Assembly: GCA_001972305.1 (NCBI GenBank)
Contig: BDDD01000998.1
Location: 241,462-305,461, forward strand
DNA from: Cephalotus follicularis
Taxonomy: Eukaryota > Streptophyta > Magnoliopsida > Oxalidales > Cephalotaceae
Direction: 5' to 3'
DNA: 64,000 nt
Program-made: the position numbers and the translations under genes
The notes under the pieces: generated by a model
Databases searched by the model: none
What the model was told of the DNA's origin: nothing
The model's input: the letters and a program-made list of their open reading frames with translations, nothing else
In this document: positions 12,592 to 64,000 of the stretch, piece by piece
Layout: each line of letters begins with the position of its first letter
Position numbering within the stretch: position 1 is the first letter of the stretch

Positions 12592-12665
12592 AGCCGACTG
12601 GACAATCTGTCCAGTCGACTGCCTTGCTATCCAGTCGACTGTCATTAGTGGCCAGTCGACTGGAA
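12592..12665. repeat. CAGTCGACTG array between Cop1 pol and its 3' ORF
   Basis: Five units within 75 bp (CAGCCGACTGG, CCAGTCGACTGCC, CCAGTCGACTGTC, CCAGTCGACTGG and a half-unit). The same palindrome recurs about 17 times in the LTR of this element (14768-15275). Confidence 0.88.
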
Positions 12666-12777
12666 TCACGACAGTCAGGGTTTTAAACCCGAAATCCCTA
12701 CTATTTTTTCATTCTTTCTCAAATCGAAAACCTCCCAAACACATTTCTCTCTCATATTTCGTCCTGCTACCTTCAAT

Positions 12778-13935
12778 ATGGGACCAAAGAGAGCAAGAGC
12801 AACTACTTCAAGGCTACCAAGGGGATTACAAGTGGAGCTAGACTGTGACAATACACTCTTTCTCTCCAAAGAGAAAGAAATGAGGTATAACTCTCATTTT
12901 AGCTCAGTTAAGCTGCATTTGGAGAAGTGGTTATCTAGGGATATACTTGTTAGCAATCTTGCGATTGTAATGATGTGGTTAGAGACTATGGGTTGGTTTG
13001 ATTATATTTGCTCATCACACACTATATACCCTAGATTAGTTAAGATGTTTTATGCTAATCTAGAGACCTCTACCACTTGCATTGCCAAATCATTCGTTTT
13101 AGGAACTCCTATATCCATTACTCCTGACTTAGTTGCCGAAATATTAGGAATTCCTAATGAGGGAATTACTAATTTTCATGACATTGGTAGAACGGAGGCC
13201 CTAGGAATTTGTCTAGAAAAACCTAATGTCAATCCACTTATGAATGTGACTAGTGGTCATTTGCCAATTGCCTCAAGGATCATTCTACTTCTTGTAACAA
13301 ACACTTTTCTCCCAAAAGAAGGCTCGCACACCCTCCCTTCCGAGCGAGACCTAAAATTCGTCGCTTGTGTTAAAAACGGAACCACAATTAACCTTCCATA
13401 TCTTATTGTCAACCACCTTTTATCTGGACCAAATCACACTCCATATCCTATGCTTCTTAGTAGGATCATTTCGTTTGTCCTTGCTTCACTTAACATAGAA
13501 ATTCCGGATGATGAGCAAAGTGTTAAACCTTCCCATAAGCAGTTAGTGAATAAAGCGGGGCTTCGACATTGTAGCATTGTTTTTGAGGATGGTGAGTGGG
13601 TCAAGATGCAAGGAAGAGGTAGAGAGCAAGCAAGAGAGCAAGTGCCTGTTAGGGCTGATGATGATGAGGAGGAGGAGGAGGACGATCCACAACAGTTTGA
13701 GATGCGTCCGAGTGCTGGACAGAGCAGCAGCAGCAGCAGCAGCCCTACCATGGAGTCTCTTCAGGCAAGGATGGATCTTGCCCAAGCTGACATTGAGTTT
13801 CTCAAAGGGGAAATGCATCACTTTCGTGAGGGACAAGCAAACATCATGCAAAGTCAAGCGGATCTCCAACAGGGACAAGCGGACATCATTCAAATGCTTC
13901 AAAACGCATTTCCTCAGCACCCTCCTGCATCTTGA
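12778..13935 (+). CDS. Env-position ORF of Cop1 (plant transposon-protein-like, 385 aa)
   Basis: Intact frame downstream of pol, where Sireviruses such as SIRE1 carry their env-like gene. The first 270 residues resemble the so-called putative plant transposon protein domain found in extra ORFs of Sirevirus and Athila-type elements; the segment YPRLVKMFYANLET with a following ILGIP is characteristic. Residues about 288-305 are very acidic (DDDEEEEEDD), followed by a poly-Ser run encoded by AGC repeats and a C-terminal Gln-rich stretch of heptad-like character (ESLQARMDLAQADIEFLKGE, then repeated QGQAD) likely to form a coiled coil. I see no signal peptide and no convincing membrane segment, so an envelope role is doubtful. 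The ATG at 12778 is chosen because the frame upstream lies in a pyrimidine-rich leader. Function unknown. Confidence 0.8.
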   Translation: MGPKRARATTSRLPRGLQVELDCDNTLFLSKEKEMRYNSHFSSVKLHLEKWLSRDILVSNLAIVMMWLETMGWFDYICSSHTIYPRLVKMFYANLETSTTCIAKSFVLGTPISITPDLVAEILGIPNEGITNFHDIGRTEALGICLEKPNVNPLMNVTSGHLPIASRIILLLVTNTFLPKEGSHTLPSERDLKFVACVKNGTTINLPYLIVNHLLSGPNHTPYPMLLSRIISFVLASLNIEIPDDEQSVKPSHKQLVNKAGLRHCSIVFEDGEWVKMQGRGREQAREQVPVRADDDEEEEEDDPQQFEMRPSAGQSSSSSSSPTMESLQARMDLAQADIEFLKGEMHHFREGQANIMQSQADLQQGQADIIQMLQNAFPQHPPAS

Positions 13936-14602
13936 GCTTACATTTGCATTATCATGTTTTTGTCTTTTGAACTTTGCATTTGTAATGTCCTTTAGTGTTT
14001 GAGCTTTGTAAAAGACAAGTTATGTGGTTAATGCATTTGATGTTTCTTAAAAGTTTTTAAGGATATTATTGCTTTGATCTTGTTAACAATGTGGCTTATG
14101 AACTTGAAGTTTTAAGTTTAAGTGGTTTGTGGATGTGGTTAATAAATGTGACGTTTTATGAGTTCAATTATAATGTGCTTCAATTTATATTGCTTTGTGT
14201 TGGATGAATGTCATTTATATAAATGTCTCTTATTGCATTGATCTTATTAATGAATTGTATATGTATGCATAAGTTGAGGGGGAGCTCTTCAATCCGTGCT
14301 ATGATTGAGGGGGAGCTTCCGTCTATCTTTTTGTTGTTTGACAAAAAGGGGGAGAGATTTATATGCATTTGCACATTGCTTTGAGGTTGGGTTGCATAAA
14401 TGGAGTTGAATGCATTTGGGGACAAATATTGCATATTGATGAAATGACTTGAAATCTTGCATTGAGCAAGTGTACTTTGTTATGACAAATGCATTGGATA
14501 TGCCTATATTGGTAAATTTGGACTTTGGAACTAAAATGGGTAAAATTTGTCAAGATGTATGCAAAATATGCATGTTTTGTCAATCATCAAAAAGGGGGAG
14601 AT
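13936..14602 (+). promoter_or_regulatory. Cop1 3' untranslated region with repeated polypurine tracts
   Basis: No gene here. Four G-rich tracts occur: TTGAGGGGGAGCTC (14274), TTGAGGGGGAGCTT (14304), AAAAAGGGGGAGAG (14342) and AAAAAGGGGGAGAT (14589). The last abuts the LTR and is the likely functional primer. Multiple polypurine tracts are a known Sirevirus trait. Confidence 0.85.
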
Positions 14603-14767
14603 TGTTGGCCTTTGCCACCCCGATTAATTACATTTACATATGTTATTTTGATGATTAACAAACATAGATTACTTGTATGCATAATTCTTTAAGTTATAAC
14701 TTCATATACTCACTTGATCTTATGTCCAAAGTTGTGCCAAGAACTTTTATGCAGAAACAGGTCAAGA

Positions 14768-15275
14768 CAGCCGACTGGAAAGAAATCCAGTTGACTGCCA
14801 AGGATAGGAGTCGACTTCCAGAGGTTATGTAGTCGACTGCATCTTCAACCAAACTCAAAATCTGCAGGAACAACAATCCAGTCGACTACCACAGGGGTCC
14901 AGTCGACTGCCAGGCAAAACCAGTCAACTGCAACAGGGCATCAGTCGACTGCCATGGGTACAATTTCAGGCAGTAGCTTCAGTAACATTTTACAACCAAT
15001 CCAACCGACTGAAGCAGGGGACCAATCGACTGCCAGGGGGTACAGTCGACTGCCAGGGAATCCAGCCGACTGTTTTCAATTGTGAAAAATCTGGAAGTAG
15101 GTTCTGTAACTTCTTATTTAGCCTCAACAGCCGACTGGAACAGAGCATCCAGTCGACTACCAGCACCACCAGTCGACTGCCTAGAGGAGACAACCGACTG
15201 CCCACTCCCAACGGCTATATTCAAATGTACGCGCCATCAATCCAGCTGAATAACGTCCAAATCCAGCCGACTGGA
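14768..15275. repeat. CAGTCGACTG palindrome array in Cop1 LTR
   Basis: About 17 exact or near copies (14768, 14788, 14808, 14829, 14878, 14899, 14920, 14942, 15001, 15021, 15043, 15062, 15128, 15149, 15170, 15191, 15262), many followed by CCA. Spacing is mostly 20-22 bp, two helix turns. The array ends about 45 bp before the TATA. Confidence 0.9.
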
Positions 15276-15315
15276 TTTGTAACAGACAGTTAAAAATAGA
15301 TCCGTTGGAGGCTCA

Positions 15316-15326
15316 ACTATAAGAGG
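15316..15326 (+). promoter_or_regulatory. TATA box of Cop1 LTR
   Basis: ACTATAAGAGG followed about 30 bp on by a CA-rich start region. Position in the LTR and following leader fit a copia promoter. Confidence 0.65.
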
Positions 15327-15609
15327 AAAATTAGAGCTCTTGCACAAGTGATCAAGCATTCAAGTCTCAAATTCTCTCAAGCAATCTCAAGTACTATACC
15401 AAGCTTTCAAACAATCAAAAGAGATCAATCCAAAGCAATCCTACACATTACAAAGCTTTATTCTTAGATTTCATATACATTTGTAGCTTTGTTTAAAGTG
15501 AGCTAAAATTGTAAAACAAATTCCTACGAATTTGTAACCTTCAAACTATTACTTTCACTCATACAAGAGAGGTTGTCTCTTGTATTGCTCGGTTGGAGCA
15601 AAGTTGTAA

Positions 15610-16947: not shown

Positions 16948-17608
16948 ATACTGCTTATAGAATATTTCACGGAACTCAACCCAACTCAAGGTGTCAATGT
17001 AGTTTCCTCCTTTTGCTAACTTCAAAGTTTGCCACCATTTTTGAGCATCCCCTTCCAACTTATATGGTGCCAACCTTACCTTTTGTTCGTCATCACATCC
17101 CAACACATTAAAAAATTTCTCCATATGCGCAATCCAATGCTCAGCATCTACAGGGGTCGGGGCTAAACTAAAAGACTGCGGCCTTTGCTTTTGGAACCGT
17201 TCAAGCTAGCCATATGCAGGAGTGTCGAGCCGGTCCCCAATTTCCTTACCAGTCTGAACATCAGCCGATGCATTCTCCGCTGCAATAGGCTCTTGGCGTC
17301 CTTGCCCTTAATTTTTCATAGCATGAATGAGTCGATCTATTTCTTGAGCAACTACCTGTCACATCAACTCATCAACCATAGGCTCACTTTGTACCTCTTC
17401 GCGAGTCTCAGTCTATTCGTTTCCTCGATGGTTATTCCTTGTTCATACCATCTACGAAACATAAATCCAAAATGTAACACAACAACAAAGAAACCAAGGT
17501 CGAAACAACAAACACGTCAGAGGAATTACAACGAAAGATCCTAACCCAAAGTCTACCCAATCTCACAGGTCAAAACCCAGATAGGTCTTCTAAGGAAAGG
17601 AAAACCTA
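16948..17608 (-). pseudogene. GypB1 gag fragment
   Basis: Minus-strand gag of a gypsy family distinct from Tekay. Recognisable are APTPVDAEHWI, the helix MEKFFNVLGCDDEQKVRLA, then YKLEGDAQKWW and the following WVEFREIFYKQY. The beginning contains stops and frameshifts, and the piece is cut at 16947 by the LTR fragment. Downstream gag and all of pol are absent. Confidence 0.85.
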
Positions 17609-17610
17609 TT

Positions 17611-17621
17611 CTCTGATACCA
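17611..17621 (-). promoter_or_regulatory. Primer binding site of GypB1
   Basis: TGGTATCAGAG on the minus strand, four bases inside the LTR; initiator Met-tRNA type. Confidence 0.88.
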
Positions 17622-17625: not shown

Positions 17626-20531
17626 TGTAACATCCCCGATCCGGAGGGAGTCGTTACGAGTCCTTATCCAAGACTAAACATAACCTATCTTATAACGTGG
17701 CTCAATTTTATTCTTTTTATCAAGATATTAAGTCATCTTTTATTCAAATTGCGTGATGGTCTAAAACTTAATATTCAAAATCTAAAACATTGTCTAAGAC
17801 TTTATTCATAATATGAAACTTAAACAAAATCTGGAAGGTTAAACATAAACCAAAGCTGAAACATAATCCAAAGTCATAAACTAAAAGACATAATATTACT
17901 CAAATAGGGGTTCTAACATGACCATAAAATAACTAAGCAAAAACGAGTCCATCTCCTAACTGTTCTTTATCATAGGTGACATCTCGCTCATCACACATTA
18001 CCCGGATGCTGTCCCAGAATACCTGCGCATGGAAACAAAAATGCGGCTGAGCAAACATCAGTACAGATATTGAATCATAAAACATAAAACGATAATTTAA
18101 AAGATAGAAAATACCTGAACCTTGAAATATCATACGACACATGTATAAAATAATTATAAACAGTTCTATCAATTCAAAACCAATATCCGATTTTCAAAAC
18201 GTTAACAATTTTCAAAAATGATATCAAATAAAAAATCTGATTTTTCAAAGCACAATCCAAGTTTCAATGCAAATCGAAAATCCCAAAACGATATTCAAAG
18301 CGATACTCAAAATCTCATTGTTCGAGTTAAAAAGGGTTTCCAAAACAAAACATATCCGATTCTGATATCTCATAAAAGAGATCCAAAACATATAACAGAG
18401 ACTTATCCGATTCTGAAATCTTATAATAGAGATCCAAAGTACATATACATAAGTGCAAGGGGTTTGCAAGGCCCACATGGTCCGACGGAAAGACGTGTAC
18501 GGCACTACACAATCAATCCCCAAAATCGAATCCTTAACATATCCTAGGATCGACCCATATGCCTCTATCACATATATCGGATCCATAAATCCACCTTATG
18601 GGATTTATTCAAAACATAGAGAGACGTCGTAGACTAATCACACCGCTACGGAAGTGTCATGTCCCCGTGCCAGCCCTACGACTTGCCTATGGTACACCCC
18701 ATAGGTGGGAAATATCTCTGTATATCCTTATCCAAAGTTAACATACTTCCTAATGTGAAAGTGATGTTCATTTAACACACTTCGATAGTAGAAGTCATGT
18801 TCCTTATCAAATCCAAAATCCGTATACTTTCGTATGTGAAAGTCATACTTAGTTTATAAAACCAGTGATATTAAACTTCAGTAGTAAAATTTTTTTTACA
18901 AAACATCCGAGGTTGTATATCATTTCGTAAACATTTCAGAGCCAAAATATAAAGTTAAGAAATATTTATTTCCACAAAAATATCTTACCGACTTTACTTC
19001 TAAACATATCAAAATACGGAGCATAATGGAGTTCATAAAATTGAAGGGACATATTCATAAAGTAAAGCTATCATTTTACCATAAAAACAGTAGGGGGTAT
19101 CAAGGAACGAAACATCCGTACAAAATATATTTGAATTCATTTCAGTAAAACCGAAGCAGTAAGCCAAGAATGAAGAATCCGTACCTTAAGCGATCACAAA
19201 AATAACTTTACGAATCGATCAACAATTTAAAAGTCCCTCGGAGCACAAAAATCTAAAAGATACAATACCATTCATACAAGGGTTCAAAATCACTTTCAAA
19301 CATCAAACAGTAATTTAACAATGCTTAAAACATGCTCCAATTCATTACGAAACCAAACGGATGACAAAACTTGAAACCAGAAATTTCCAGGACAATTCTA
19401 GTCGACTGTATCAAGATCCAGTCGACTACTCATAGGGTGGTAGTCGACTACATAACATAGGCATCCGACTACTCAATCTGGGTTGAATCTAGTCGACTGT
19501 GACAGGGGTCCAGTCGACTGTGAAAGGCAAAACAGTCGACTGTTTCATAAGGCAGTCGACTGTTCTGGGCGATAGAACAGCAAAAACATAGCAATTCAAT
19601 TCCAATTTTCTGTCAAAACCATGTTACAATATTACCAGATGATCTCAAACACTTATATGGGTCTTATTTGACTTAATAGTTGTATTTAAACACCATGAAT
19701 CATGCAATGGTGATCACACTTTTTAAACAGAAGCAAGTTCCAATTTACTATATACATAATTCCATTCCTAATTTATGTCAAACACCCATTATCATATTCA
19801 AAACCTGTTGGTATGATCACAAGGCACTTCCTAACTTTCTAACAATCTCAGAACATCAGCAAAACATGCATGGCAGGGAGTAAAACAAAACCAACATACT
19901 AGCAACCGTCATGAACATGCAACTGGATAATATAAAATGAAACTCACTGCTATTCCATATTAACCGAGGAAAACCAAACTGATTTTGTGAAACAAAAAGG
20001 AACAAAACAGATTCCAAGCTTTGCAGATTCGGCTACTAGGCTCAACAAAGTCGTGAGGCATAAACAATGTGTAATTGTGCATATAAACAGAAAATATGAG
20101 GCAATATTTGGCTAGATAGGGAAAGGAGAATCCAAAATCTGATAGGAATAGGGGAAGAGGCACACAATTCGGGATTGAGGGAGAGGAAGAAGGAAAGAAA
20201 TCGGTTTGGCAGGAAGAAGGAAGAATACGTGAGAGAGAGGGAGAGGGAAAAATAGAAAGTAATATTTATTTACCAAAATACAATATTTGTTCCCTTTTTA
20301 AAATCCTTTTTATTTGTTTGTATCAAAAACCAATTTTGATCACTTTAAAATACCCACAACAATTATTACCTATCTACAATTACATTTTATTAATTATCCA
20401 AAGGCAACATAATTGGTATTATAAAGCCCAAAACATAAAGGTCCAAATAAAATTTAAAAAAAATAGACCAACATAATATCAAAACAAAATAAAAATCCGA
20501 AAATAAGCACACGAACGAACGGGGTATTACA
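17626..20531 (-). repeat. GypB1 5' LTR, 2906 bp
   Basis: Ends TGTAACATCCCCG...GGGGTATTACA, placed correctly next to the primer site. It shares long blocks with 46865-48635, such as AAAATGCGGCTGAGCAAAC and TAGACTAATCACACCGCTAC. A CAGTCGACTG array lies at 19398-19565. No gene; short open frames in it are not conserved. Confidence 0.9.
19398..19565. repeat. CAGTCGACTG array in GypB1 LTR
   Basis: Eight copies in 168 bp, for example CCAGTCGACTACTC, TAGTCGACTGTGA and GGCAGTCGACTGTT. Same decamer as in the unrelated copia LTR at 14768-15275. Confidence 0.9.
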
Positions 20532-22601
20532 GTGCTTGTTTCATCTTATCATTGGTGTTCACGCCATGATAAGATGAGACGCATGGCATTAACGCCATCT
20601 TGGGCAGATGCATGCCTTTCACCAGCTTTTGGGAAGTTGGTGGGAAAAAGGGAAAGTGTGCTCAACATGCCAAATAGTGGACTTGGAGCATTTAATGAGA
20701 GAGGAAAATTGAATAAAAGACAAGAGGTCTATAATGACAAAAACAACTTTACTCTTCCTCTCTCTAACTTCCAAGCGTGCGTTCTCGCTCTTCTTTATCT
20801 GTCTGATCCGCGATAGGCGTTGACACCATGGAGAGCATGCGTTGATGCCAATATTGCATGGATGAAGAAGACGCCATTTTCAACCATCCTTTCACCCATC
20901 AAAGCTCAATATAGGTAGAGATAACTTGTACCTTGCATCTTATCTTTACCTATAGAGTTTTAGTGTAGGTTAAACACATAGACCTCTATCATCTTCTTCC
21001 TTATGCGTGGCTTAAGGAGGAGCTTGGAGCTTTCATTGAGTTTTGGGATCAGAGTGATGAGGGAGCACTTAAAGGAAGGAGCCATCACTTTAGGTAACGA
21101 TTTCTTACTTTCGCTTTATGGATTCGGATTGGGGCTTGGGTTTTCCAACCCTAGAAAAACCCAAGATGAACTTTAATGTGTTTTGTTTGTCTTGCATTGG
21201 ATTGCATGTTATTGTGTACAACATGCAATTTCTTGTTGTGGTTAGGGGTCTTCAACCCTAGCTGAACTCCCTGGTTTTTGGAGGAACCGTTGTAATCCCT
21301 TGCAGTTAGGGATTTCCTTGGTTCGGGTTTGTGGGTTTCCATTGCTAAGGTTTGTGTGTGTTCCCTTAATGTAATTGTTTGTGACCAAAGTGAGAGTTTA
21401 CGACAACTCTTACTCCAAACCCGTTTCTTCTTTAGACTTGGATCGGTTGGTTGGTTTGGACAGATGCTCTATTAGGGTTCCTGGGCTTATTAGGATAATT
21501 GTGGACATTGGTTAGGGTATCTTATTTCTTGGGGATCAATCATTTGATTGAAAATTAAAATTGTTCACCCTATACTCCTAATTCCCATATTTGAGATTTT
21601 GTTTCTTCCGCTGCGTCTGGAGCTTGTTTTTCGTTCCCAACAATGCATTCATTCTCTCTTTTTCCATTGCTTTGGCCGATATTTTGAGGCATATAGGGGC
21701 CGGCCTTGTGCTCCAAGAAAATAGAGATAAGGGTTGGGCATTTGTCATGCGTTAATTGGACATGTGTGAGCATTCATTTTATAATGAATTCTTACTTAAC
21801 ACTTAAGACAAAACCCTTGCACATTCAACTCTTTATACATTCGGTTTTCACCCGAAGAATAGCAAGATCTCTATTCTCTTCTCTTCCTTTTCTGTGTGTG
21901 TGCTCTCCATTGCCGGGCACACCAAGAGATTGAAAGCTCTCTTAGAGAAGAAGAACAAAACTTGCTTCTCTTACCCTCCATAATCACAATAGCTGGAGAT
22001 AGTTTTCTCATTGGATTCTATGTTTACATATTGTGAGTATTAGTTTAGGTTAAACACTTAAACCTTCACATATGTTGATCCTAAGTGCTTGAGGATCATC
22101 TTTGGTCAAGACACAAAGCTTGGATCAAAGTGTAGAGGGAGCACTAGAAGGAAGGAGTGAAAGCTTTGGGTAATGGCTTCTAAACTTTCTCTCTTTGTGA
22201 TGTTATTTTTTGGGGCATGAATCATACGGGTTTTGACTAGGGTTTTTATACCCTAACCTACCATATGTGTTCCACGAATTTAACCCTAGAAAACCCTTAG
22301 GATTTTGGTGAATTGGGTTAAGGTTTGAAAGACTTGGAGCTAGGGTTTAGATGTGAAAATGTTAGCCATGAAAAGCGAGAACCCGAAGCTAGGGTTAGTG
22401 AATCCCTAGCTTCACCCGAACTCTAATCTTGCTTGGAATGAGTATTTGGTTCAGTTGATAGTTACATTAGTGATCCTTGAAATAATTGGATCAATCTTGG
22501 ACATAGGGTTTAGGTAGTCTCAATGTGTGGAGACTTAGAGAAACCAAAATGAAGTTGACATAATTAGGTGGCTTGCTTTGATGTCTAGTGGCTTTCCAAC
22601 A
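20532..22601 (+). repeat. Copia-type LTR sequence of Cop2 (two related, decayed units)
   Basis: No gene. Two parallel stretches repeat each other: TTTAGTGTAGGTTAAACAC near 20960 against TTTAGGTTAAACACTTAAAC near 22042, and the AAGGAAGGAG blocks near 21073 and 22151. The first ends with CTTCCGCTGCGT...TCCCAACA (21612-21643), the same ending as other copia LTRs here. The second ends TTTCCAACA at 22601, next to a primer site. The left end is cut by GypB1. Confidence 0.6.
20542..20576. repeat. Inverted repeat (hairpin)
   Basis: CATCTTATCA (20542-20551) and TGATAAGATG (20567-20576) are perfect reverse complements. Pairing extends into the loop (TTGGTG/CGCCA with one G-U). It lies 10 bp from the GypB1 end. 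Confidence 0.8.
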
Positions 22602-22616
22602 AGTAGTATCAGAGCC
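22602..22616 (+). promoter_or_regulatory. Primer binding site of Cop2
   Basis: AGTAGTATCAGAGCC follows CCAACA directly; relatives read AGTGGTATCAGAGCC. Initiator Met-tRNA type. Confidence 0.8.
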
Positions 22617-24716
22617 TCTAGTTATCTTCCATTGGACCTTGATTTGATGTCTAGTGGCTTGCTTTGGTGCTCCTTACCTTTCACCAAAATTTCATGTCCT
22701 AACCCTAGAGTGAAGTTGACATAATTAGGTGATTTGGAATGTCATATTCTAGGTCATTTTTGCCAATGGTTAGAACTTGTTTAATTGAATGATTAATTGG
22801 ATAGTTCGATGATCCAAAGATTAATAAATTTGGTGTTGATGATGCATGGGAATTCTAACATATGTATGTATGATTTAGGATCTCAAACGGACCTTAAAAA
22901 GTCATTAAACGAGGGTTTATAAATGTCAGGAATTTCGGTTTGAAAACTGGTTACGTGCAGAAATTTTTGTTCAGATTTTCGTACTATTTAGTGCATTTTA
23001 TATGGCATTTATCACTATAGAAATTTGAACTGGTTAGTGACTGTTTGAGTGCAGGATGTCTCTGCACAGATTCTGACAGATTGTGCACATATTCTGACAG
23101 ATTATGCACACTTACTGACAATTTCCAGCATAATTACTGTAAGTTATCGGTAGGTTTCCTGCAAGCTTCCAACGAGCTTTTCTTTACAGTTTCTGTGCAA
23201 TCTTCGCACAGTTACTGGTAGGAACACTGTATGGACTGGACAGTAACGTATCACGGTGTTCGGGCAGAGATTTAATTCACTTATCCACATAATTCTTTCT
23301 TATAGTTCAATTTTATTCAAGAGAAATAATAAATATTAGTTTATTCTAATATAATTGCATTGTTTTCACTCAAATAAATCCATGTGTGGGATTAATCAAT
23401 AATTGTAGTGTTGAACTACAAATAGGGTGACTAGATTTTAAGTTATCTAGTGGGAGTGGATTTTAATTTTGGCTGGTAAATAAATCGACAATCCATTAAA
23501 TATTAAATTGTCACATGTTTATTCATTAAATATATAGTGAATATATTTTTTGGATTTCTTGTGCATGGTGGTAGACTTGGGACTCAACCTAGACTTTTTG
23601 GTTTCTTATGTGGATGTTATTTAATTTCTTTATTACCGTGAAATTCAGTTGGTTTGTTATAAGGCTGCTTGCGCGCCATTAATTTTTCTTATCCATTAAT
23701 TTTGTTATTTCTCTTCTCCCCCAATATATTGTATTCTTATTCTTTTTAATGCATATGTAATTTTAAGAAGAGTTGAAACGAAGCTTGAAGAGAGGACTAC
23801 GAAGAATACAAGACCAAGTAAAGGCCATGTATGTATGGTGAAAATATTGTAATAAAGTAGTTATTAAATAAAGTACACCTAGGAGACCGAGTGGTCACGT
23901 TTGACTCACGTGATCACTAAATAGTTTAATTCCCAAGTCAGGACATTTTTTTATGATGCATGAGATGGATGAATTATTTCTCATTTTTCCAAACGCATCC
24001 GAGCATGCTAAGTCGTTTCCAAATGGACTGGAAGATAAAATGAAATTTTATTAACGACTATGGTAAAATTAAATTTTAAAAAGTGTACGAGACCTAAATT
24101 CCTCCAAAAACAAATAATAAGTCTATAAGAAGTTGGGCATAAGGTTATCCCATTGTTGGCCTTCCATAACCTTCCTTGAAGGGTGTGGACATATTGGGGA
24201 TAGCACTGTCAAAGCAGAGGTCCTCCGTATGACTATTGCTGTTCAGCTTCAGTGTGAGGTGCACTGGAAGGAAATAACCATGTTCTGACACTCTGACAAG
24301 CACACTTGTGACGATCAAAACAGGTTTATGTCTTAGAGGATTGTGGGTTCAACTAACACCGGGTTCATATTATTGGCGCAGCCACAGCTGTGGATTAGAT
24401 GGGTCGGCAGGCCGAACTTGTATCGAATCTTGCATTTCAAGGGCAAGACCCTAATCCAAACTGATGCTTACGTCTACCTATTCAGGTGTTATGGCTGGCA
24501 CACTGACATGTGGGGTTGTACCATGCTGGATAGGTTCCGATCCCCACAAGGAGGTGGGTGATTCCCAAATTCCACCTGGAGGTATGGAATACGATTAGAA
24601 TAGTGGGAAAGAGCCATATTTACAAAAGACAAAGGGTTATGGTAATAACATTATTCGAATAATATGTTAATATTGTTTCTCTGTTTCCTCATATGCTATA
24701 AAAATATACTCACTCA
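22617..24716 (+). other. Cop2 leader, no recognisable gene
   Basis: About 2.1 kb of AT-rich sequence between primer site and gag. It contains short direct repeats of TCTGACAGATT(G/A)TGCACA near 23070-23115. A 72-codon open frame at 24343-24561 resembles nothing I know. Possibly an unusually long leader or an inserted, decayed element. Confidence 0.5.
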
Positions 24717-25313
24717 ATGGCAAACAGAAAAATCAAAACACACATACATAAAACTTTTAAGCTTGAAGATCCGTTGTTTACTGAATGGAAACATACTTTA
24801 CGTAATATTATCATTAGTTTGAACATTGTTCATGTTATGATTGAGAAACCTCCTGAGCCAGTTTATGATGTATCTGACTAGTATAAGGCATGTGTAATCA
24901 AATGGTGGGAAGACAATTTTCAGGCCCGTAGTATAGCAACTGTTGGTATGCCACTACCCTTGCTAAATCAAGTTTTCCACTCACAGACATTATGTGCCAT
25001 GCTTGAATGGTTAGAGTAGTTATATGGCACACAGTCGGGCACTGAAATGCTAGATTTTGACCAGTATGGGTCAACATCTTCTGTGATACATCCTACTCAT
25101 GATGGAACATCTAATTCCAGTTCCAAGGGCAAAGCCCTTATAGAGAATGAAAAAGTGCAAGGTGAAACCATTCAGAAGGATATTTGGAAAAATCTTATTA
25201 TGGATAATGCATGTTATTATTGTGGGAGACCGGACCATTGTAAGAAATATTGTAGAATGTTGCAAATGTCCCAAGTAGCAAGTACCTCAAAATTAGGCAT
25301 TTACTCCATCTAA
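24717..25313 (+). pseudogene. Cop2 gag with CCHC zinc knuckle
   Basis: Begins MANRKIKTHIHKTFKLEDP and reads through a copia gag with two in-frame TAG stops (about 24879 and 25017). A zinc knuckle C-YY-C-GRPD-H-CKKY-C follows near residue 165. Both stops are in the reading frame, so it is a decayed but collinear gag. The 3' continuation into protease is not clear. Confidence 0.85.
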
Positions 25314-26640
25314 CTTAAAATGTAAGTTCAATTTGAGTATAGGACTCAGATTGTGAGACTAACGTCGGTGAGTCTTTGCAGGAGCCAAGAGAAGTTAGAA
25401 CAATTGGGAGCTGTTAATGCTAAGGACAAGTGCCATGGTATAGAATCGGAGATTCACACGAAATTTTGTAGGCAAATTTTGATATGTATCAAAGTCGGGC
25501 GGCAATGTAAAAGAACTTATCCCTTTTAATATTGTGAACTGTTGTTCAAATCAATATTAATAAATCCATTGTATATTATGTAAGGCTGAGAGTACTTTTG
25601 TTTATTACATTAGGATTTTATCAATTTATAGTGTAGTTTTAGAGGTTGCTGAACAACTACAAAAGGGGATATATGTCTATGATGCTAATCAATTAATAGT
25701 TGTATCTATATTAAAAGGATTTATTAATAAAAGACATATGAGACAAACTGATATAAATCCTGCACAATATTAAGCATTGTAGACTAAGTCATATCTAGAG
25801 AGGCTAGATAAACACGCTTGGTTAGGGATGCACATTTGTACATTCAGGATGAGGAGTCCTTTCCAACGTGTACACCATGTTTGATTTGTGCAATGACCAA
25901 ATCTCATTTCTCCTTAAAAAGAGAAAAAGTAGTGGTCATAGATGAGTTTAGTTCACACTGTCATTTGTGATTTAATGTCAGTCAATGCATGTGAAGATTT
26001 TCACTACTTCTTAACCTACACCAATGACTCATCATGGTTTTGGTTTATGTTTCAGGTGAAAAAAAAATTGTGAATCCTTTTGAGAGATTTAAGGATTTCA
26101 AAACATAAGTAGATAAGCAAACAGGTAAGCCCATTAAAACACTTCGGTGGGACCGAAAGGGCAAATACCTAACTGCTAAATTGCAATGTAATCTGAAAGA
26201 TAATAGAATTAAATCTCAATAGATACATTCAGGAACACCATAGAGAATGATGTATCTGAATGATGGAATCGAATCCTAAATATGAATATGGTCTTATCCA
26301 TAATGTCTTTTATACATCTTTCAATAGCATTCTAGGGTTATACACTGTAGTGGGCAGTGTACATCCTAAATCGGATTCTTCTAAAACATGTCCCCTCCAT
26401 ATCTTGTAAGATATATAAAAGGAGGAAACCCAACCTAAAACATTGGAAGGTTTACAATTGTCTAGCATGTATTAGAAGGTAGGAACTTTCTAAGCTAGAG
26501 GCATAATTGTGACATTGCCAGTTTGTCAAATATCCTACAGAAAATTTAGGATATTATTTCTGTCATCCCAGCGAACAAATGATGTTTGTTTCGCATACTG
26601 AAAAATTCCTAGTGAAGGAATACATGATTGCAAGAAGCTG
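25314..26640 (+). pseudogene. Cop2 pol remnant: protease/integrase
   Basis: Heavily broken copia integrase. In changing frames I can read a CLICAMTKSHF-like zinc-finger end (near 25880), LRWDRKGKYL (about 26145, the catalytic SDRGGEY region) and the GYYFYHP...VFLVKEY-like element after the core (26520-26620). Many stops. No intact domain remains. Confidence 0.75.
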
Positions 26641-37934: not shown

Positions 37935-37939
37935 ACAAT

Positions 37940-39062: not shown

Positions 39063-39065
39063 AGT

Positions 39066-39783: not shown

Positions 39784-42352
39784 TGTAGCGCCCCCGACCC
39801 GAGTCCGCTTTAAGCTCAAAGCGAGCTCCGAAGATCGGTGCGTTACATGGGTGTAACCTTTGACCGTCAAATTATTTAATCATTCGACGATCCATTTCAT
39901 ACCATTTAATCTTGACTTAGATTTAAAATCTAACATTATCACTCAATAACTTCACAGGATCACATATGCTTACATCTTTGAAACACTAATTTCAAAATGT
40001 CATATTCTCATTATCATGATCGTTTCTAATACCTTACATTTATACATCACTTAACATGTAACCTTACACAACGGAAAATATAAACTTATCTCATCATAAA
40101 ATAATCATATACTCACCTTTATCATTAACGTCCCATACACTCAAGTATGTTCAATAACTTTTCATATCGTCATCTTACACAAAAACATCATAACCTATGG
40201 CATTCGTTTCCTTACCTTAACATCTATACATCGTTTATCAAAAAACATTACACAGCGGAAAGCATACACGTATAACATAAAACATAACTTCATAGCATAA
40301 ATTTCTTTTCCTTACTCTTCTTCTTTTGCTAACTTCCTCTAAAGCTCGCAACTTCATGTTCAACATTTCCTGGAAGATTATTTGAAAAACAAGACATTGA
40401 AAGGAGTGAGCTTTTAAGAGCCCAGTAAGAATCATAGTTATAAAACGTTATCGAAATTCGTTACTTTTGATAATTTATATCAAAACATTACAAAATCATA
40501 CTTTTCAAAATATCTTTGGAAATCATTTTCTAGTTTTATAAAACCAGAACATTTCTAAAATCGTACCTTTTCTGGTATATATAACCAACATACTTGAAAA
40601 CAATCAAAACGTTTTCCGTTTATACATTCTTGTGGCATATATCTCAGCCAAACTTGAAAACATACTTTCATTGAAAACCATTGTCTGGTCATAACCAGAA
40701 CCTTTCATAAAACTTGTGGTTTAAAAACCCTTAATGAACCCTTTACACCGCTTCACCGGGGCATTGTGCACTCCCCGACTACTATCCTTACATCACATGC
40801 ATGTCCGTGAGCACGCTCGGCTCCATTAACTTTGAGCAATCTCGCTCCATTCCCCTTGGATCACAATCCAAGGACAGTTCATTCATCATATACTTTGAGT
40901 GATCAGCTCAAAGCATTCATAAAAATCATTTCATAACATTCATAAACTTTTCTCTTCATAAAACATTACTCTTCATTTGAGTAGTTAACTCAAATGCATT
41001 CATAAAATCATTTCATAAAACCTTCCTTAATACCTTGAGTGATAGGCTCAAAGTATTCATAAAACGTCATTGTAAAACCTTTCTAAAACTGGTTTTCCAT
41101 ATAGAAACCTTCATTTCATTTCTTTTCACAATCCATAAAACATTTTCATTACTTTGAGTAATTAACTCAAAAATCTTTATAAAACAGTTTTGCATCAGTT
41201 CACTAAAATAGATATTTCATATAAAAATAATCACTTTCATAGAAAACTTAAAACATAAAAGTTAAAGTAGACATCTCAATGAATCTATTGAGACAAAAAT
41301 CATAAAATTCCATTGAGAAACGAAGCTGCAATGAATTTTTAAAGTTGCAGTTTCCTTTTGAAAACAGTACCTGAGCAGTGGAAGAAAACATGAATTTTCA
41401 TCAAGAATTCGATAGAATCTCGAGATGCATAAAATATAAAAGTTAAAGTAGACATCTTGAGGTTTTCAAAACATTAAACCATTATAATTTTCATCAAGAA
41501 CTCAGCAAGATATGAATTAAACTATCTGCTGCATAATTTTGAATCAAAACAGAGGACAACTATGATGAAATGGGTGTAGGATCTCCTTACCTCACTTGAT
41601 CTCCTTCTCTTATTCTCTCCCACGAAATCTCCCTCTTCAGCTCAGCAGAAACCAACTTCTTTCTCAGCTTAGAATGCACACATATATAAGGAGAAAAGGA
41701 AACTTGGAGGCTAAGCTTGGGTGGTGTCATCCATGACCTCACCCATGTGAGCTTGTCTCCATGTGATTGAATCCAATCAATTCAGCTGATGCCACCTGCC
41801 TTATAGTAGTAAAATATCATAATTCATCCATTCCATGCTTGACACGTGCCCTACAATTCATTAAATCCTCCAAAATGGGATAAAAACTCATAATTCTGCA
41901 CCTGACACAGAGCAAAGCGTCGACTCTTTACCTTTAAGCGTCGACTGTCACAGCCTTTACCTGAGTTTTTCACCTCTATCCCGACTAAAGCGCTGACACT
42001 TTACTACAAAGCGTCGCCGCTTTAAGTCTCCTCCAGGTCAACTTTCAATTCTTGGTCTCGAAGCGTCGACTTTTACATTTAAAGCGTCGACCGTTACTAC
42101 CAAAGCGTCGGCGCTTTGGGACAGTTTTCTTTCTCAACACTTAGTCAGAAAATTTTTCTTCTAGGGGCGCTGCCCCCTGAACCCCCGCCTGCTGTCCGGG
42201 CAGTGGGACCCCCCGTCCACTCACCGGGGAGCGGAACCCCCGTACTCCCCGAGCGTAGGGTCATACTACGGGTCCTTTAAACTATCTGCCAATATACACA
42301 ATAGCAAACATTTCCATAATTAATATCTTACATAGAAACTTGGGTCATTACA
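39784..42352 (-). mobile_element. Solo gypsy LTR in GypA gag, 2569 bp
   Basis: TGTAGCGCCCCCGAC...GGGTCATTACA with perfect GTATG flanks. Gag reads across it when it is discounted. Orientation is inferred from a TATATA followed (minus strand) by a GAGAGAATAAGAGAAGGAG leader. It has an AAGCGTCGAC array at 41926-42120 and a GC-rich hairpin at about 42162-42260. No gene. Confidence 0.9.
41926..42120. repeat. AAGCGTCGAC array in solo gypsy LTR
   Basis: Seven units such as AAAGCGTCGACTCTTT, AAGCGTCGACTGTC, AAAGCGTCGCCGCTTT, AAAGCGTCGACCG and AAAGCGTCGGCGCTTT, 230-425 bp from the inferred 5' end. Confidence 0.85.
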
Positions 42353-46519: not shown

Positions 46520-46538
46520 ATTTTGGGGACAAAATTCT

Positions 46539-46553
46539 AAAAAGGAGGGGTAC
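46539..46553 (+). promoter_or_regulatory. Polypurine tract of GypA
   Basis: AAAAAGGAGGGG then TAC before the LTR start. Confidence 0.85.
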
Positions 46554-49260: not shown

Positions 49261-49300
49261 GCATAAGAACAACCCCTCCCCACCTCTCTCTCTCGTTTTA
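49261..49300 (+). promoter_or_regulatory. Core promoter-like segment of Tek3 LTR
   Basis: GCATAAGAAC, pyrimidine-rich CTCTCTCTCTCG and GTTTTAAAACACC; 625 bp into the LTR. Confidence 0.5.
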
Positions 49301-52322: not shown

Positions 52323-53499
52323 TGTCACGCCCCGAACCGCGAAGGCGAACCCCCACGATCCGACGCGTGAGATAGCATCCGTTTAGTCATTCATCATTAT
52401 ATTCGTCACTCTCCATAAGTGCTATATATATAAAAGCCTTTAAACAATCAAACAACATCAGCGGAATACCCAATTCAAATAAAAACTAACTCTTAAAATT
52501 TCTCGAAAATCGGGCATGGTGTATTCGTTTATCGGACTTAACCCCCTGTAAAGAAAAACTCAGTTATTATATTTTCACACTCCCAAAGGAGGAATCAACA
52601 GTGATATATACATATGGGGCTCAGCCCTCAGCAATCACAACTAAACTCATTATCACATCATTCTAATGCCTCAAAAGATGGGCTTGTCCCTGTTTAATAC
52701 ATCAATACATATATCATAAGCACTGCCACATATCGGCAGGTCAATAGCTGAAATAATACATATCTCTATTATGTCTTTTGAGTGTCTCTTATACATTACA
52801 AGTCTTATACATCCGTACATTCAGATATAAATACAAGGCCTTTTATACGTCTCATATAAGTAAACCATAAACATTACCATAAGTAAGATCATATACCAAA
52901 TGGCAATTCAAAACATGCTACCGAGAATCCATCCATCTCGATCCATTTCACTGTAATCCATCACCTGTGTCTGAGCCTGACCCATTCCGCACACAGGGGA
53001 AATGGGTCAGCGACATAATGTCGTGTAGGGTATACTATGTGCGATGTATGCAACATTTATAACAGTATGCAATGTATGCATCAATACAGTGGTGTGACAG
53101 TGTAACAATATGTCATGTAACCGTAAGTGCAACGTGAACAGTAATGGTGTACAGTAACAGTGCATTGCAGTATATCAGTGTGCAGTGAACGGTAACAGTG
53201 TACAGTGGAGTGGCAGTAACAGTGCAGTACAGTATATCAGTGTACAATTGCGGACAGCTTCGATATACCAACCGTCCCTAAGCGGGGTATATCTAGCTGG
53301 TCCTAATCACATCTAAGGCCATAGGCCTGCAGACACTCAGTAATCAGTCAGTAACAGTACATGGGAACAAACAGTTGTAGGGTCAAGTACTTCTCTGCTA
53401 CTCCGGCCCGAGATAGTACCCCCATCGACTAAACACAACCCTCCCGTGTTATAGTCGTATGGGGCATAGGATAACACTGTCCATGAAAACAATACAGTA

Positions 53500-53670
53500 G
53501 CGTTGGACCCGAAGGTGCCAGCCAGTAACAGTAACAGTAACAGTAGTGCTAGACCCGAATGGTACTAGCCAGTAACAGTAATAGTATTGCTAGACCCGAA
53601 GGGAACTAGCCAGTAACAGTAACAGTAGAGCTCTCAGTAACAGTAACAGTATCAGTAACAGTAACTGTAT
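53500..53670. repeat. CAGTAA-based minisatellite in GypC LTR
   Basis: Three units of about 50 bp of the form GTGCTAGACCCGAA(T)GGTACTAGC plus CAGTAACAGTAACAG, then simple CAGTAA runs that recur at 53920-53975. Confidence 0.88.
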
Positions 53671-54274
53671 CCATCCCTCAGGCGGTGACTCCCGTAGGTC
53701 ACAAAAAAAGGAGGATTAACAGTGATGTGAGGCCAAACACCCATAATACTTCATGACGGAAATGAAGATTATGAATGGGTTATCCCGTACAGTCTCAAAC
53801 AATAACAGTAAACAGTAATCATACAGTAGTCGCACCCAGTAACAGTGAACAGTAGAAATGATAGGGACCTAAAGGACCAATGTGATCCACATCCGTCAAT
53901 ACAGTTGTAAAACAGTTTTCAGTAACAGTATTCAGTAACAGTTCAGTAGCAGTAACAGTTTCAGTATCAGTAGCAGTTTGTTGGTCCCTATCGAGTTTGT
54001 AAAACAATGGAGAGGAAGTCCAATGAGATCATCCGCGTACAGAGGTCCCAAAGGAGTTATCCTAACCATTCTTGAAAATCGTTTGTATAAAAACTCTTTT
54101 GTTGCACTTTCTTCAAGAATCACCTTGAAAACTTGAGTCAAAACTTTAACAGTGTTAAAAGATGATTCACATAGGATACAAGGCCTTAGGGAGGCTTCCT
54201 ATGGAATCAATCAAAAGAAGAAACAGTTTGAATTTGAAAACAGTGAGAAACAGTGCCATTTCGTAACAAGGCAC

Positions 54275-54383
54275 TAAGCGTCGACTAGTTTAGTTTAAAA
54301 AGCGTAAAGTGTCGACTATTCAGTTTGAAGGCATGAAAGCGTCGACGGGTCAGTTTTGAAAGCAGTAAAGTGTCGACGGTTTT
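54275..54383. repeat. GTCGAC array in GypC LTR
   Basis: Four units: AAGCGTCGACTAG, AAAGTGTCGACTATT, AAAGCGTCGACGG and AAAGTGTCGACGG. Confidence 0.85.
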
Positions 54384-54945
54384 ATTAGAAACAACAGTTC
54401 GCAAATCAAAGGAACTATGTCCGAAATCCATGAAATCAGTTTCAGTTTAGTATAAACAGTTTGTAAATCAATACCCCGTTCCCAATCGGTGCAACAACCA
54501 GTAATCGCAGTAAAACAGTAACAGTTCATACAGTAACTACAACAGTCAATCAACACTCAGTGACAGTAGTACAGTAACAATCCACACAATTCATTGAAAT
54601 GCATGAATGCAGTGCAAATAGTATAACCTACCAGTTGAAGCAGTAACAACAGTTGCACTTGCTATTCCAGGGATTCTATAGCAGAACCGATGAATCGTCA
54701 GCTCCTCCAAGCTTGAACCGGCTATCGAATCGCCATCGCTTGGGAACCTCCTATCCTTGATCACTTCATTCACCCTGCATATACAACACGTTTCTGTTAC
54801 ACTCTACGCACGGAAACCAAGCACGGTCGCCATCGGAGCTTCGACCAGTTTTCTGCCAACTCACTTAGCTCCAGCGACTCCCATAAACAGACTCCACATT
54901 GGTTTCCAATGGGAATGATTTCCATAATCAACCTCAACTAGGTAT

Positions 54946-56101
54946 AATTAATTATAGTATTTAACGACTATTGGATCTACTGTTGATTTCATATAAGGAG
55001 ATTATATTATTGTTATCCTTGAAATTGATTGAATGGTTGTTGTGCATTGCATATCATTCAAAGTGTTAAACTGTTACAAATGTTCACATATTACTGCTAA
55101 AGTGTTTCAAAGGGTTTCAAGAACTGAGTGCTATATGAACATTTTACTGTTACTGTTTACAACTGAGTGCTAATTACACAAACTACTGTTACTGTTATCT
55201 TCTTCTCTACGAGAGCCTACTGAAAGTGTTACTTCTATTTTGTCCCAAATGAGGACCACTGATACTGTTTTTCTGTTTTCTCTGCAAAAGAGACCAACTG
55301 TTTTATTGTATTATATATGCAATACACTGTATTGACTGTGATTGCTAGTTTCTGTTGGTCAAGTGATAGGAGCCATCACTGACTACGGAGGTGGACCTAT
55401 GGGTCAGGAGTTTGCTAGAGCTCTCACTAAAATTTATTGGCAATGTCGATCCTGAGTGTTAGTTGCCCGCTAAACGTCGGCAGTACTGTTTTCCTTTTCT
55501 ACATCATCGGAGTGCATGGTGGTAGCTAGCTGGTGCGCATTTTGTGCTAGGAGTTAGCAACATGTGTCACTCACTACTGGTCTTCGGACAACTGTTTGAT
55601 TGTTCTCTTGTGCGGTATCTTTGATGACTGATTGACTGTAGCCCCTCGACATGATTTCTTATACATATTGGCATTTATATAAACTGTTTTTAAATGATTA
55701 ACTGTCATGCATGTTTACATATATATTTTCAAATTCATGCATACTTCCTGCTTAGCCGAGTGAGGGCAAAGGCTAATACCTACTATTTCAAATTGACAAG
55801 GGTCACTGTGAGACGTGTTGTGGAAGCTATAATTGGAGGCTTCATATTTTAAGGTGGTAAATGTTGAATTGTAATAAGTTACACTCCGTTATGTTATATT
55901 TACATTGCTAATATGTAATATATAACGTGTATCGTACTTGGTAGCATGTAGTATGGGCTGTATGTGGAGACCTTTAAATAACCCAGTATATGAATGCTTC
56001 CACAAGTTTATTTTATGACTGTTTTGATAAATGTTGGATTAACTGATAACCATATGTTGTTTATTAACTAAACATTTATAAATGGAAAATGGGGTGTGAC
56101 A
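54946..56101 (+). repeat. Tek4 5' LTR, 5'-truncated
   Basis: Right 1.15 kb of a Tekay-like LTR: CTTAGCCGAGTGAGGGCAAA near 55753, GCATGTAGTATGGGCTG, and the end AATGGGGTGTGACA at 56101. The half that would carry the promoter and arrays is missing. Confidence 0.8.
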
Positions 56102-56105: not shown

Positions 56106-56117
56106 TGGTATCAGAGC
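56106..56117 (+). promoter_or_regulatory. Primer binding site of Tek4
   Basis: TGGTATCAGAGC, four bases after the LTR end. Confidence 0.95.
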
Positions 56118-61803: not shown

Positions 61804-61960
61804 GGACAGTCGGATGTTTGCCTTCACAGTCAGTTGTTTCCTTACATAGTCGGATGTTCTATATGAATAGCCGGCTGGATATCTTGAGTAGTCGTCTATT
61901 TGTACCAAACAATTGGCTATTTACATTAAGCAGTCGACTGTCTATCGAGACAGTCGGCTG
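61804..61960. repeat. CAGTCGACTG-type array, downstream block of solo LTR
   Basis: Seven units: CAGTCGGATG, CAGTCAGTTG, TAGTCGGATG, TAGCCGGCTGG, TAGTCGTCTA, CAGTCGACTG, CAGTCGGCTG. About 935-1095 bp from the LTR 5' end. Confidence 0.85.
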
Positions 61961-62669
61961 TCTGAGCCCAGGTTCGTTTCAGCAGAAACAGAGTATGCAT
62001 AAAAACAACCTTCAATTCAATTTCAATTAACATGAAACCACATATAGGATATCATAACATGAAAAGCATGCTATATATATCCGAATCATGTCATAAATTC
62101 CTTCTACCTACCTCAAAAGCTATCCCAGAATCAGTTGAAAAGATTACTCTCTTTAAGTTCCAACTCTTCACTTTCCACAACTTCAACAACCCACAGCAGT
62201 CTATGTGTGCATTAAACAGTAGGTATATATATATATATATATGAAATCAGTACATATATACTACTGTACAACCATAACAGTAACTGGAATTTAACAACAG
62301 AAGCTTACCAAAAATGTAATTCTGAGCTTCTATTCCTCATGCACACACACAGAAGATAACTTCTCTCCTTTCAATGTTTCCAACACTCAAAATCATCCAT
62401 GAATGGCTGATATAGGCAGCTTCATCCAAGGAATTCAAATGATTCCTTTAACTCCAACTTTTGCTCTTTTCTTCATCTCTCTCTCATTACTTACTGATTT
62501 TAGTTCCTTGTAGGTTTTAGAGGCCCAGAGACACCAATGCATCAGTATACTCAGTCTGTGGCATGTCCACGCCACTTAACCTTGTGAAATCTGTCGTCTC
62601 ACACATGTCCACAAAGCAACACGCCACACCCTATTTTCAAGCAACACGTAGCCTTCCTGTCAAGACTTT

Positions 62670-62822
62670 GCCAGTCGACTATTTTTAAATGGCAGTCGAC
62701 TGTTCCCCTGTGACAGTCGGCTGGAGCGTGTACGAACCAACCAGTCGACTGTTCCCCTATGATAGTCGGTCGTGTTCTATACAAAACAACCAATCGACCA
62801 TTTATACAAACAGTCGGCTATT
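62670..62822. repeat. CAGTCGACTG-type array, U3 block of solo LTR
   Basis: Seven units (CCAGTCGACTA, GCAGTCGACTG, CAGTCGGCTGG, CCAGTCGACTG, TAGTCGGTCG, CAATCGACC, CAGTCGGCTA), about 75-225 bp from the LTR 5' end. Confidence 0.85.
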
Positions 62823-62900
62823 TTATTCCCCACTATTCACACCATAACACACTTTCGACTCAAGCCTTGCATTAATTGAAATTTATGGTTATTACATTAC

Positions 62901-64000
62901 TGTACTGGTTTCTGTGAGATGGTGAAGAAGACGACTGTTGGTCTTCTTAACCGTCGATGCTGAGGATAAGCGTCGACGATATGGACTGTAATACGTACTG
63001 GTTTCACATTGAACGTCAACACTTAGTGACAACGTTGACACCCTGAGTTAGATTTCGTACTAGTTTGACTATGCACGTCGACGCTTAGAGAAAGTGTCGA
63101 CGCCCAGCTCGAATAAATGTGTAATGATTGAGACATGGACGTTGACACCTGAGGTCCAACCTCAAAGCGTCAAGGGATAAACAGCGATGCTCAAGGATCC
63201 TTACCTTGAAGCGTCGACGCCAAAGACAAGTTTTGACTCGTAGAGTCACTGGTTTAAAGCGCTGATGCCATGGAGTTGAGCGTCGACGCTTAGAGGACAT
63301 AAGAGTCGACGCCTATAGGTTAAACGTCGACGCTTAACACATGTTTTGGACAACTTCACTCAGATCGTATACGTTGATCCCAAAAAGACCCTAGATGCAT
63401 TTGAGCATATGTTTGTATTGTATATTGTACTATTAACTGAATTGTGAATCGAATCGTGACTATTTTCTAAAGTGTTTTATCATTTTAGAAGTCCATACAT
63501 GGTTTTAAACAAAATCATTATTTTACATGGAAATGTATGTTAACAAATATATATTTTCGGAAGATTGAGAAAAGGGTTTCCAAATATCATGAACCATTTA
63601 AGAGATGGCTTGTTCATCAAAATTACTGTTTCAAGTGTTTATAACTTATAAATTACTTGAGTTGACCGTTGAATGTGATTGTTATTGTTGCCGCTAGTGG
63701 GGATTGTTGTCGCTTAGCCACCGTGCTATGTATCGTGATTGCTACTATTGCCGTTAGCGGGGTACTGTGGGTACTTAGCCACCATGCTAGTATCATTACT
63801 GTCTCCTGACTTTTGTTACTTATCGTCGTGCCAAGAACGTGGACGTTGTTGGTACTGATTGTGATTGAGTGGTCCCCTTGAGGACATGGCTGTTTATACT
63901 GATGAATATACATATAGATATATGTATAGGTAATGTTATACATTATGTACTGTATCATGGTGCATTCATTTCATGACACTCATTATCATTGACCTCGAAT
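62901..64000 (+). repeat. Tek5 LTR, right part, open at window end
   Basis: Resumes the LTR left at 60536, with a dense CGTCGACGCTT array at 62952-63335, then a Tekay-type 3' region (CATTTGAGCATATG, GACATGGCTG) running to the edge. Whether Tek5 is a whole element or a solo LTR cannot be told. Confidence 0.85.
62952..63335. repeat. CGTCGACGCTT array, downstream block of Tek5 LTR
   Basis: About twelve units, for example AACCGTCGATGC, AAGCGTCGACGAT, CACGTCGACGCTTA, AGTGTCGACGCC, AAGCGTCGACGCC, GAGCGTCGACGCTTA and AAACGTCGACGCTTAA. Confidence 0.88.

Follow-up and report, generated by a model that had tools for sequence, protein, structure and literature searches.

Arrays of short palindromes that share a GTCGAC core are found in the long terminal repeats (LTRs) of both copia and gypsy retrotransposons in a 64,000-nucleotide stretch of the Cephalotus follicularis genome (contig BDDD01000998.1, positions 241,462 to 305,461; this whole stretch is the window below). 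We judge it probable, at roughly 60%, that these arrays constitute a cis-regulatory DNA-binding module, and the protein bound there would probably be a dimeric factor of the host. The observed properties of the arrays are enrichment of the core, a preferred pair spacing, mirrored flanks, better preservation of the core CpG than of other CpG among related gypsy LTRs, spacers common to copia and gypsy, and one change of dialect in place, where dialects A, B and C are the three forms in which the sequence around the core occurs. Given the constant core, the dyad symmetry, a two-turn pairing that is independent of motif length and the dissimilarity of the spacers, a cooperative dimeric protein would be expected to select them.

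The window was matched to G000:C998:241462-305461 of an assembly of 1.577 Gb in 9746 contigs and was compared with 18 stretches, each 10 kb long, of selected contigs, picked blind to their content (177,192 non-N bases), to which six held-out stretches were added for a full random set of 24. Further comparison sequences are labelled L121, L124, L132, L134, L135, L137, L146, L148, L149 and L154. The window contains 53 copies of GTCGAC, and 100 dinucleotide shuffles contain a mean of 5.4 and a maximum of 13; among palindromic hexamers GTCGAC has the highest ratio of observed to expected (9.5), followed by GACGTC (6.3), itself within dialect B, and it also ranks first in the 18 stretches (6.9). 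TCGA-centred near-palindromes 14 bp long occur 28 times, with 3.0 expected from shuffles (maximum 7, z 15.7), and the excess over sequences of equal dinucleotide content anticipated in the original prediction thus holds by both counts. For the remaining 15 palindromic tetramer cores, an excess is observed only for ATAT and TATA, mostly in AT microsatellites. The arrays are not limited to the copies in the window: CAGTCGACTG, the commonest form of dialect A, occurs 197,377 times in the whole assembly (its reversed control, 939 times), and arrays recur in the random stretches. The same form is counted 56 times in the window, with the duplicate LTR removed, plus the 24 stretches; each of three control palindromes with matching base composition, none of which contains CG, is counted 0 times. 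Chance or composition as the cause of the enrichment is ruled out by the shuffles, the hexamer ranking, and the genome and control-palindrome counts. Within the window, arrays are located in LTRs and in one linker; the density of core sites is 0.6 per kb in coding sequence (10 in 16.6 kb) versus 2-9 per kb in array-bearing LTRs, and positions 20532-28556 hold 2 in 8.0 kb. An Rfam search returned no match at gathering thresholds, and viral contigs scanned with the paired dialect A and B patterns gave 0 matches. The paired dialect C pattern matched at least 120 stretches of viral contigs, which were taken as chance and dropped.

How are the sites arranged relative to one another? For the window, one copy of the duplicated LTR was removed, and the null came from site positions jittered within 40 bp. 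The resulting distances include 36 core pairs 19-22 bp apart (jitter mean 4.8, maximum 13), 0 pairs closer than 19 bp, one at 23 bp and 0 at 24-29 bp. The 18 stretches contain 34 pairs at 19-22 bp (jitter mean 7.4, maximum 16) and the six held-out stretches contain 24, with 0 at 23-28 bp; at least one such pair is present in 14 of the 24 random stretches. The mean cosine at a period of 10-10.5 bp is reached by 0 of 1000 jitters in each of these three sets. All three dialects exhibit the 19-22 bp pairing, such that A-A neighbours peak at 20-21 bp (31 of the 33 at 19-22 bp) and B- and C-type neighbours at 19-21 bp, and the spacing between centres is near-constant despite motif lengths of 10, 14 and 18 bp. 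A distance of 19-22 bp is two helical turns, and this pairing is new here. The GypC family has a spacing of 29-32 bp, or about three turns, in a ladder of four units in the window (31-30-31 bp apart) and six in L134. In the copia element, LTR1b, L2, L4, L148 and L154, the first site falls between about +150 and +185 of the LTR; in L3, GypX, GypC and the solo LTR it falls elsewhere.

One alternative is that the arrays work as RNA, with neighbouring palindromes annealing in transcripts to form hairpins that feed small RNAs or serve as a structural signal, a role suggested earlier for the palindromes of maize Sireviruses. When folded against 60 shuffles each, 11 of 14 array segments reach z ≤ -2.0, down to -7.9, as compared with 0 of 6 controls, and small RNAs in maize are reported to pile up on Sirevirus LTR palindromes in the relevant parts of PMC5311732 and PMC10760457. 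However, three array segments (z -0.9, -1.0 and -1.3) fold about as their shuffles do, and predicted hairpins follow from neighbouring palindromes anyway. Moreover, a hairpin requires complementarity and not one core that is kept in copia and gypsy, and a constant centre spacing with varying motif length would leave loops of ~3 to 11 nucleotides. The hairpin-derived small-RNA source named in the original prediction thus agrees with the hairpins predicted in most arrays but leaves the constant spacing and the core unexplained, and we regard it as unlikely.

All three of the dialects expected were found in the window, with 47 matches for A, 52 for B and 30 for C at the mismatch limits used; these are raw numbers without a shuffle control that include both LTRs of gypsy element 1 and some overlap between B and C. 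The earlier claim that the core stays while its flanks change in mirror image was borne out by co-variation at the two core-adjacent positions among 141 distinct GTCGAC sites of the window and the 18 stretches, where mutual information is 0.41 and 0.29 bit and the shuffle maximum is 0.14. This mirrored signal stems mainly from differences between dialects, and the LTRs compared are mostly of a single dialect by their nearest-motif label. Dialect A also extends beyond copia: a gypsy LTR (17626-20531) carries it, as does the gypsy-type LTR region at 61.8-62.8 kb. A common variant, CAGCCGACTG, resembles GCCGAC, the core of the DRE.

Conservation was assessed in ten comparisons between related LTRs. 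Identity is 661/751 aligned bases in the 10-bp sites and 7310/8963 outside them; for CpG, 64/75 are retained in the core and 167/272 elsewhere (p 5.6e-5, a value that is too small because LTRs are reused among comparisons). The two LTRs of gypsy element 1 are 96.7% identical, and between them the sites are less conserved than the remainder (113/120 versus 2612/2662; 7/120 versus 50/2662 changed, p 0.01). Since sites diverge more between these two LTRs, the retention is a property seen between lineages and not after insertion; our reading of these small numbers is that sites may drift in dead copies and be kept in replicating lineages.

These comparisons bear on a second alternative, in which the arrays are functionless by-products of slippage or tandem duplication of a ~21-bp unit, amplified with the elements. 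Tandem Repeats Finder does report arrays of period 20-21 at several places, and the unit number of the GypC-family ladder varies between the window and L134. However, within 70 pairs the sites are 83% identical and the spacer plus following bases, in tandem register, 38%, so that spacers differ where sites agree, and the 20-21 bp period arises in LTRs without detected similarity. Furthermore, in comparisons among gypsy LTRs the core CpG persists where other CpG has disappeared, and mirror-image flank changes speak against an origin by tandem duplication. For these reasons, we consider a functionless origin improbable.

How did the same dialect come to reside in elements of two superfamilies? 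Spacers of the CACAGGG type are found on the copia side in the window copia LTR, L121 and L149, and on the gypsy-type side at window positions 19490 and 62693 and in L135, L146 and L154. A further spacer, TTTTGATTGAG in the copia-type LTR of L132, compares with TTTTGATTTAG at 2769 of L137, which sits in sequence resembling the 62-kb gypsy-type LTR. Among A-array spacers, 8 of 44 from gypsy match any of 51 from copia at nine or more positions, versus a null mean of 0.5 and maximum of 4 in 300 runs, where the null is a single-letter shuffle of the copia spacers and the spacers are not all independent. Block 3896-3973 of L137 adjoins a weak copia-type reverse transcriptase match, which makes its assignment to gypsy uncertain. 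When this block is dropped, 7 of 42 spacers match (null maximum 3), and with only GypX, L146 and L154, which gypsy proteins or a primer-binding site (PBS) adjoin, 4 of 24 match (null maximum 3); neither observed count is reached in any of 300 null runs. Because these spacers are common to copia and gypsy, exchange of arrays between them, a candidate of the original prediction, is suggested as the simpler interpretation; alternatively, the spacer may contain another binding site. The common spacers also reduce the likelihood that dialect A arose in copia and gypsy by convergence alone.

The change of dialect in place concerns L148. Its start matches L137 and L3 (85% over 108 bp and 74% over 113 bp), and from base 1442 on it matches L137, L3 and L135 (80-87%); its middle is not alignable to these three, and a piece at 768-888 resembles L4 and element 1. 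The A sites of L148 are at +182-323 and +1157-1415, positions similar to those of the B sites of L3 (+210-328 and +1109-1423). Judged from these alignments, L148 is a gypsy LTR with the ends of its lineage and dialect A in place of its relatives' B.

We propose that the arrays would act as cis-regulatory modules in LTRs and in the copia linker before the third open reading frame (ORF). Each palindrome would be recognised by a sequence-specific DNA-binding protein acting as a dimer, for which the GTCGAC core would be essential and some two bases on either side would also be read. Two sites 20-21 bp apart would lie on one face of the helix and permit cooperative binding, several such pairs would make up an array, and the arrays would affect transcription. 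The factor is probably encoded by the host because copia and gypsy have the site in common without common proteins. Whole arrays or parts of them would have been transferred between the LTRs of copia and gypsy elements, and an LTR would be able to switch dialect along a whole cassette while its position is kept. Of the dimeric host factor put forward originally, the dimer is favoured by the two-turn pairing and the retained core; binding, cooperativity, host origin and an influence on transcription are inferred. The literature searched held no usable lead to the host factor.

Several observations weigh against this proposal. Many core sites are outside the 19-22 bp pairs: membership applies to just 67 of 120 in the window and, in the 24 stretches, to 104 of 405. 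In the 18 stretches other spacings also occur, with 10 pairs below 19 bp and 6 in the range 23-28 bp. Phase is weak beyond the pairs (7 of 1000 nulls at 10.25 bp and 79 of 1000 at 10.5 bp), and the intervals of 26-28 and ~49 bp that separate pairs do not fit the phase. Conservation is reversed in two copia comparisons (core CpG 4/8 and 6/9, other CpG 10/12 and 8/9), and the LTR pair of element 1 keeps its core CpG (11/12) as often as other CpG (69/77). Array carriage is not universal, with 10 of 24 random stretches lacking any 19-22 bp pair, and the 6.8 kb before the gypsy element GypB (32231-39066), whose own LTR borders are not delimited, hold 1 core site. Finally, TATA-like words are present in L3 at +646, +922, +923 and +2163 and none is listed in the copia LTR; the second gypsy cluster (+1.1-1.6 kb) may therefore be downstream of the transcription start. 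A strict version, in which all sites occupy one helical face, is weakened, there being only a slight phase signal beyond the 19-22 bp pairs.

A further question is how the arrays compare with motif arrays of other mobile elements, among them Sireviruses and the VANDALs, which are DNA transposons. In a comparison of Ty1/copia elements, the relevant part of Bousios et al. 2010 (PMC2829016) describes palindromic repeated-motif (RM) boxes with varying cores in Sirevirus LTRs, termed Sirevirus-specific, which start 200-400 bp into the LTR, number at least 8 per element, are joined by more boxes upstream of the third (ENV) ORF and accompany multiple polypurine tracts. The core is CGG-CCG in 12 of 13, with the exception of Tnd-1, whose box ACAATCGATTGT is TCGA-centred, and the Vitis box CGGTCGACCG contains GTCGAC (PMC2829016). 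The window copia element is similar in its polypurine tracts (the last tract and LTR join as ATTGTTGG, through AT-TG), in the 13 boxes of its LTR at +170 to +666, the first slightly nearer the LTR start than published, and in the boxes that precede the ENV-position ORF, as also in L149 and L124. It differs in that the copia core is GTCGAC, commonest as CAGTCGACTG, and not CGG-CCG, in that arrays are in gypsy LTRs too, and in the pairing at 20-21 bp, which is unmentioned in the PMC2829016 section on boxes. By its sequence, the window copia array fits the Sirevirus repeated motif with a different core, and the contrast with Sireviruses originally drawn is too strong for the copia part in view of varying-core palindromes such as that of Vitis. 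The gypsy arrays resemble RM boxes and are not members, as judged from gypsy-type reverse transcriptase, integrase and gag matches. The sharing of such palindrome arrays between copia and gypsy had been thought undescribed, and no description was found in open-licence literature.

The maize Sirevirus LTR palindrome, CACCGGAC-N3-GTCCGGTG, is likewise clustered in the LTR regulatory region, and among the motifs of structured Helitron regions it is reported to be the most abundant, which gives a precedent for sharing across classes of transposable elements (PMC5311732, PMC10760457); its sequence is different, and copia-gypsy sharing and helical spacing are unstated in the parts of those sources that treat it. 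The VANDAL arrays targeted by VANC are also short, non-coding motif arrays with repeat turnover and variant types, unlike the present arrays in being bound by the element's own protein and in having a non-palindromic motif in one orientation, according to the corresponding part of PMC5735166. Recurrent heat-responsiveness of Brassicaceae COPIA LTRs resembles our case in that one host cue acts on several LTR elements and differs in staying within copia, and palindromic arrays are unmentioned in the passages concerned (PMC5059998). Further literature, cited in part, comprises PMC6911290, PMC11302176 and PMC10794571.

The copia element, with an RVT_2 ORF at 19-1911, is interrupted by gypsy element 1. 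We take Pfam RVT_2 to be the copia-type reverse transcriptase. Dialect A arrays stand before the PF20167 ORF also in L149 (array 5065-5136, PF20167 at 5250) and L124 (array 1501-1685, ORF at 1811), and in L149 two similar ~1 kb LTRs, homologous to the window copia LTR, flank the reverse transcriptase end, the array and PF20167. The window ORF has homologues in 283 proteins, and among the 120 matches listed all are from Cephalotus follicularis, the first at 86% identity. Its predicted structure has a mean predicted local distance difference test (pLDDT) score of 36 with a helix at 325-377, is of low confidence and is unusable. That a factor encoded by the transposable elements, with the PF20167 ORF as candidate and the gypsy elements as free riders, binds the arrays for VANC-like anti-silencing is very unlikely: the array precedes this ORF in three elements, the family is large in the host, and VANC targets are arrays that change by repeat turnover, but the Pfam search of the 385 residues returned PF20167 plus only sub-threshold matches and no known DNA-binding domain, the structure model is too poor for use, and the VANC21 motif is non-palindromic with copies in one orientation (PMC5735166).

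The array-bearing features of the window are collected in the table; the earlier Tekay label is kept only as Tekay-like. The locations first proposed for the arrays hold for the copia, several gypsy and the GypC LTRs; the array ascribed to a GypB LTR is really in a separate solo LTR of 2.57 kb that splits the GypB gag, and arrays do not begin at 12592, as B arrays are present earlier, in the LTR at 1887-4698. A span of ~2.25 kb after the GypB integrase (46382-48635) holds 3 core sites. A 30-bp tandem repeat is present in both LTRs of element 1 (2613-2768 and 10114-10239), and as its copy number differs between them (5.2 versus 4.2), units were probably gained or lost after insertion. The gypsy LTR at 17626-20531 is adjoined by a PBS at 17610-17621 (one mismatch) and a gag remnant at 16948-17205. 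The inferred start of the GypC LTR at 52323 coincides with the end of integrase similarity of the preceding gypsy element, and for this reason GypC probably inserted into that integrase gene; CAGTAA-type short tandem repeats (53494-53979) lie upstream of its 31-bp palindrome ladder. The region at 61.8-63.3 kb adjoins a stretch resembling the end part of the GypC LTR in reverse orientation. A ~150-bp LTR stretch (about +690 to +870; window 30239-30379, with homologues in LTR1b and L4) is 72-82% similar among otherwise diverged gypsy LTRs and is possibly a core promoter or R region; the TATA-like word at +646 of L3 precedes it.

Table. Array-bearing LTRs and associated features of the window.
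Feature	Coordinates	Strand	Description
Gypsy element 1, 3' LTR	1887..4698	-	Dialect B sites 3257-4534
Gypsy element 1, 5' LTR	9388..12176	-	Dialect B pairs at +173..+311, +1075..+1440
Dialect A array, copia linker	12591..12662	+	4 sites 21-20-21 bp apart, ~115 bp upstream of PF20167 ORF
ORF in Sirevirus third-ORF position	12778..13935	+	Intact, 385 amino acids, Pfam PF20167 (putative plant transposon protein)
Polypurine tracts	14277..14600	+	Four AGGGGGAG copies; last joined to AT-TGTTGG
Sirevirus-type copia 3' LTR	14603..15609	+	Cut by N gap; dialect A array 14768-15273 (+166 to +671)
Gypsy LTR L2	15637..16947	-	Cut by N gap; dialect B pairs
Gypsy LTR	17626..20531	-	Dialect A array 19399-19562; ends inferred from terminal motifs
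Gypsy 3' LTR L3	29511..32230	+	Dialect B 29712-30942 and one C-like site 29694; ends inferred from terminal motifs
Solo LTR	39784..42352	.	Within GypB gag; 5-bp duplication GTATG on both sides; dialect C sites 41915-42116
Gypsy LTR L4	48636..50400	+	Dialect B pairs 48805-50263; no 3' end located
GypC 5' LTR	52323..56101	+	Start inferred; PBS 56106-56117 at end; dialect C ladder 54276-54381
Gypsy-type LTR region	61807..63335	-	Related to GypC LTR; dialect A block 61807-62820, C block 62949-63335

We put forward tentatively, at somewhat less than even odds, the broader idea that one helically paired module has spread over copia and gypsy elements in dialects exchanged as cassettes, partly with their spacers, that many unrelated retrotransposons would thereby depend on one host factor, and that each dialect would represent a stage in the history of the site as it follows changes in the factor or its paralogues. 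If this is true, a large share of the retrotransposons of one plant would be under a single control input, through a site specific enough for direct identification of its protein, and regulatory cassettes would move between superfamilies that have no proteins in common. The fixed spacing and the two dialects within one LTR lineage would offer ready controls, and since a single dialect alone has 197,377 exact copies in the genome, the elements could compete for or redistribute the host factor.

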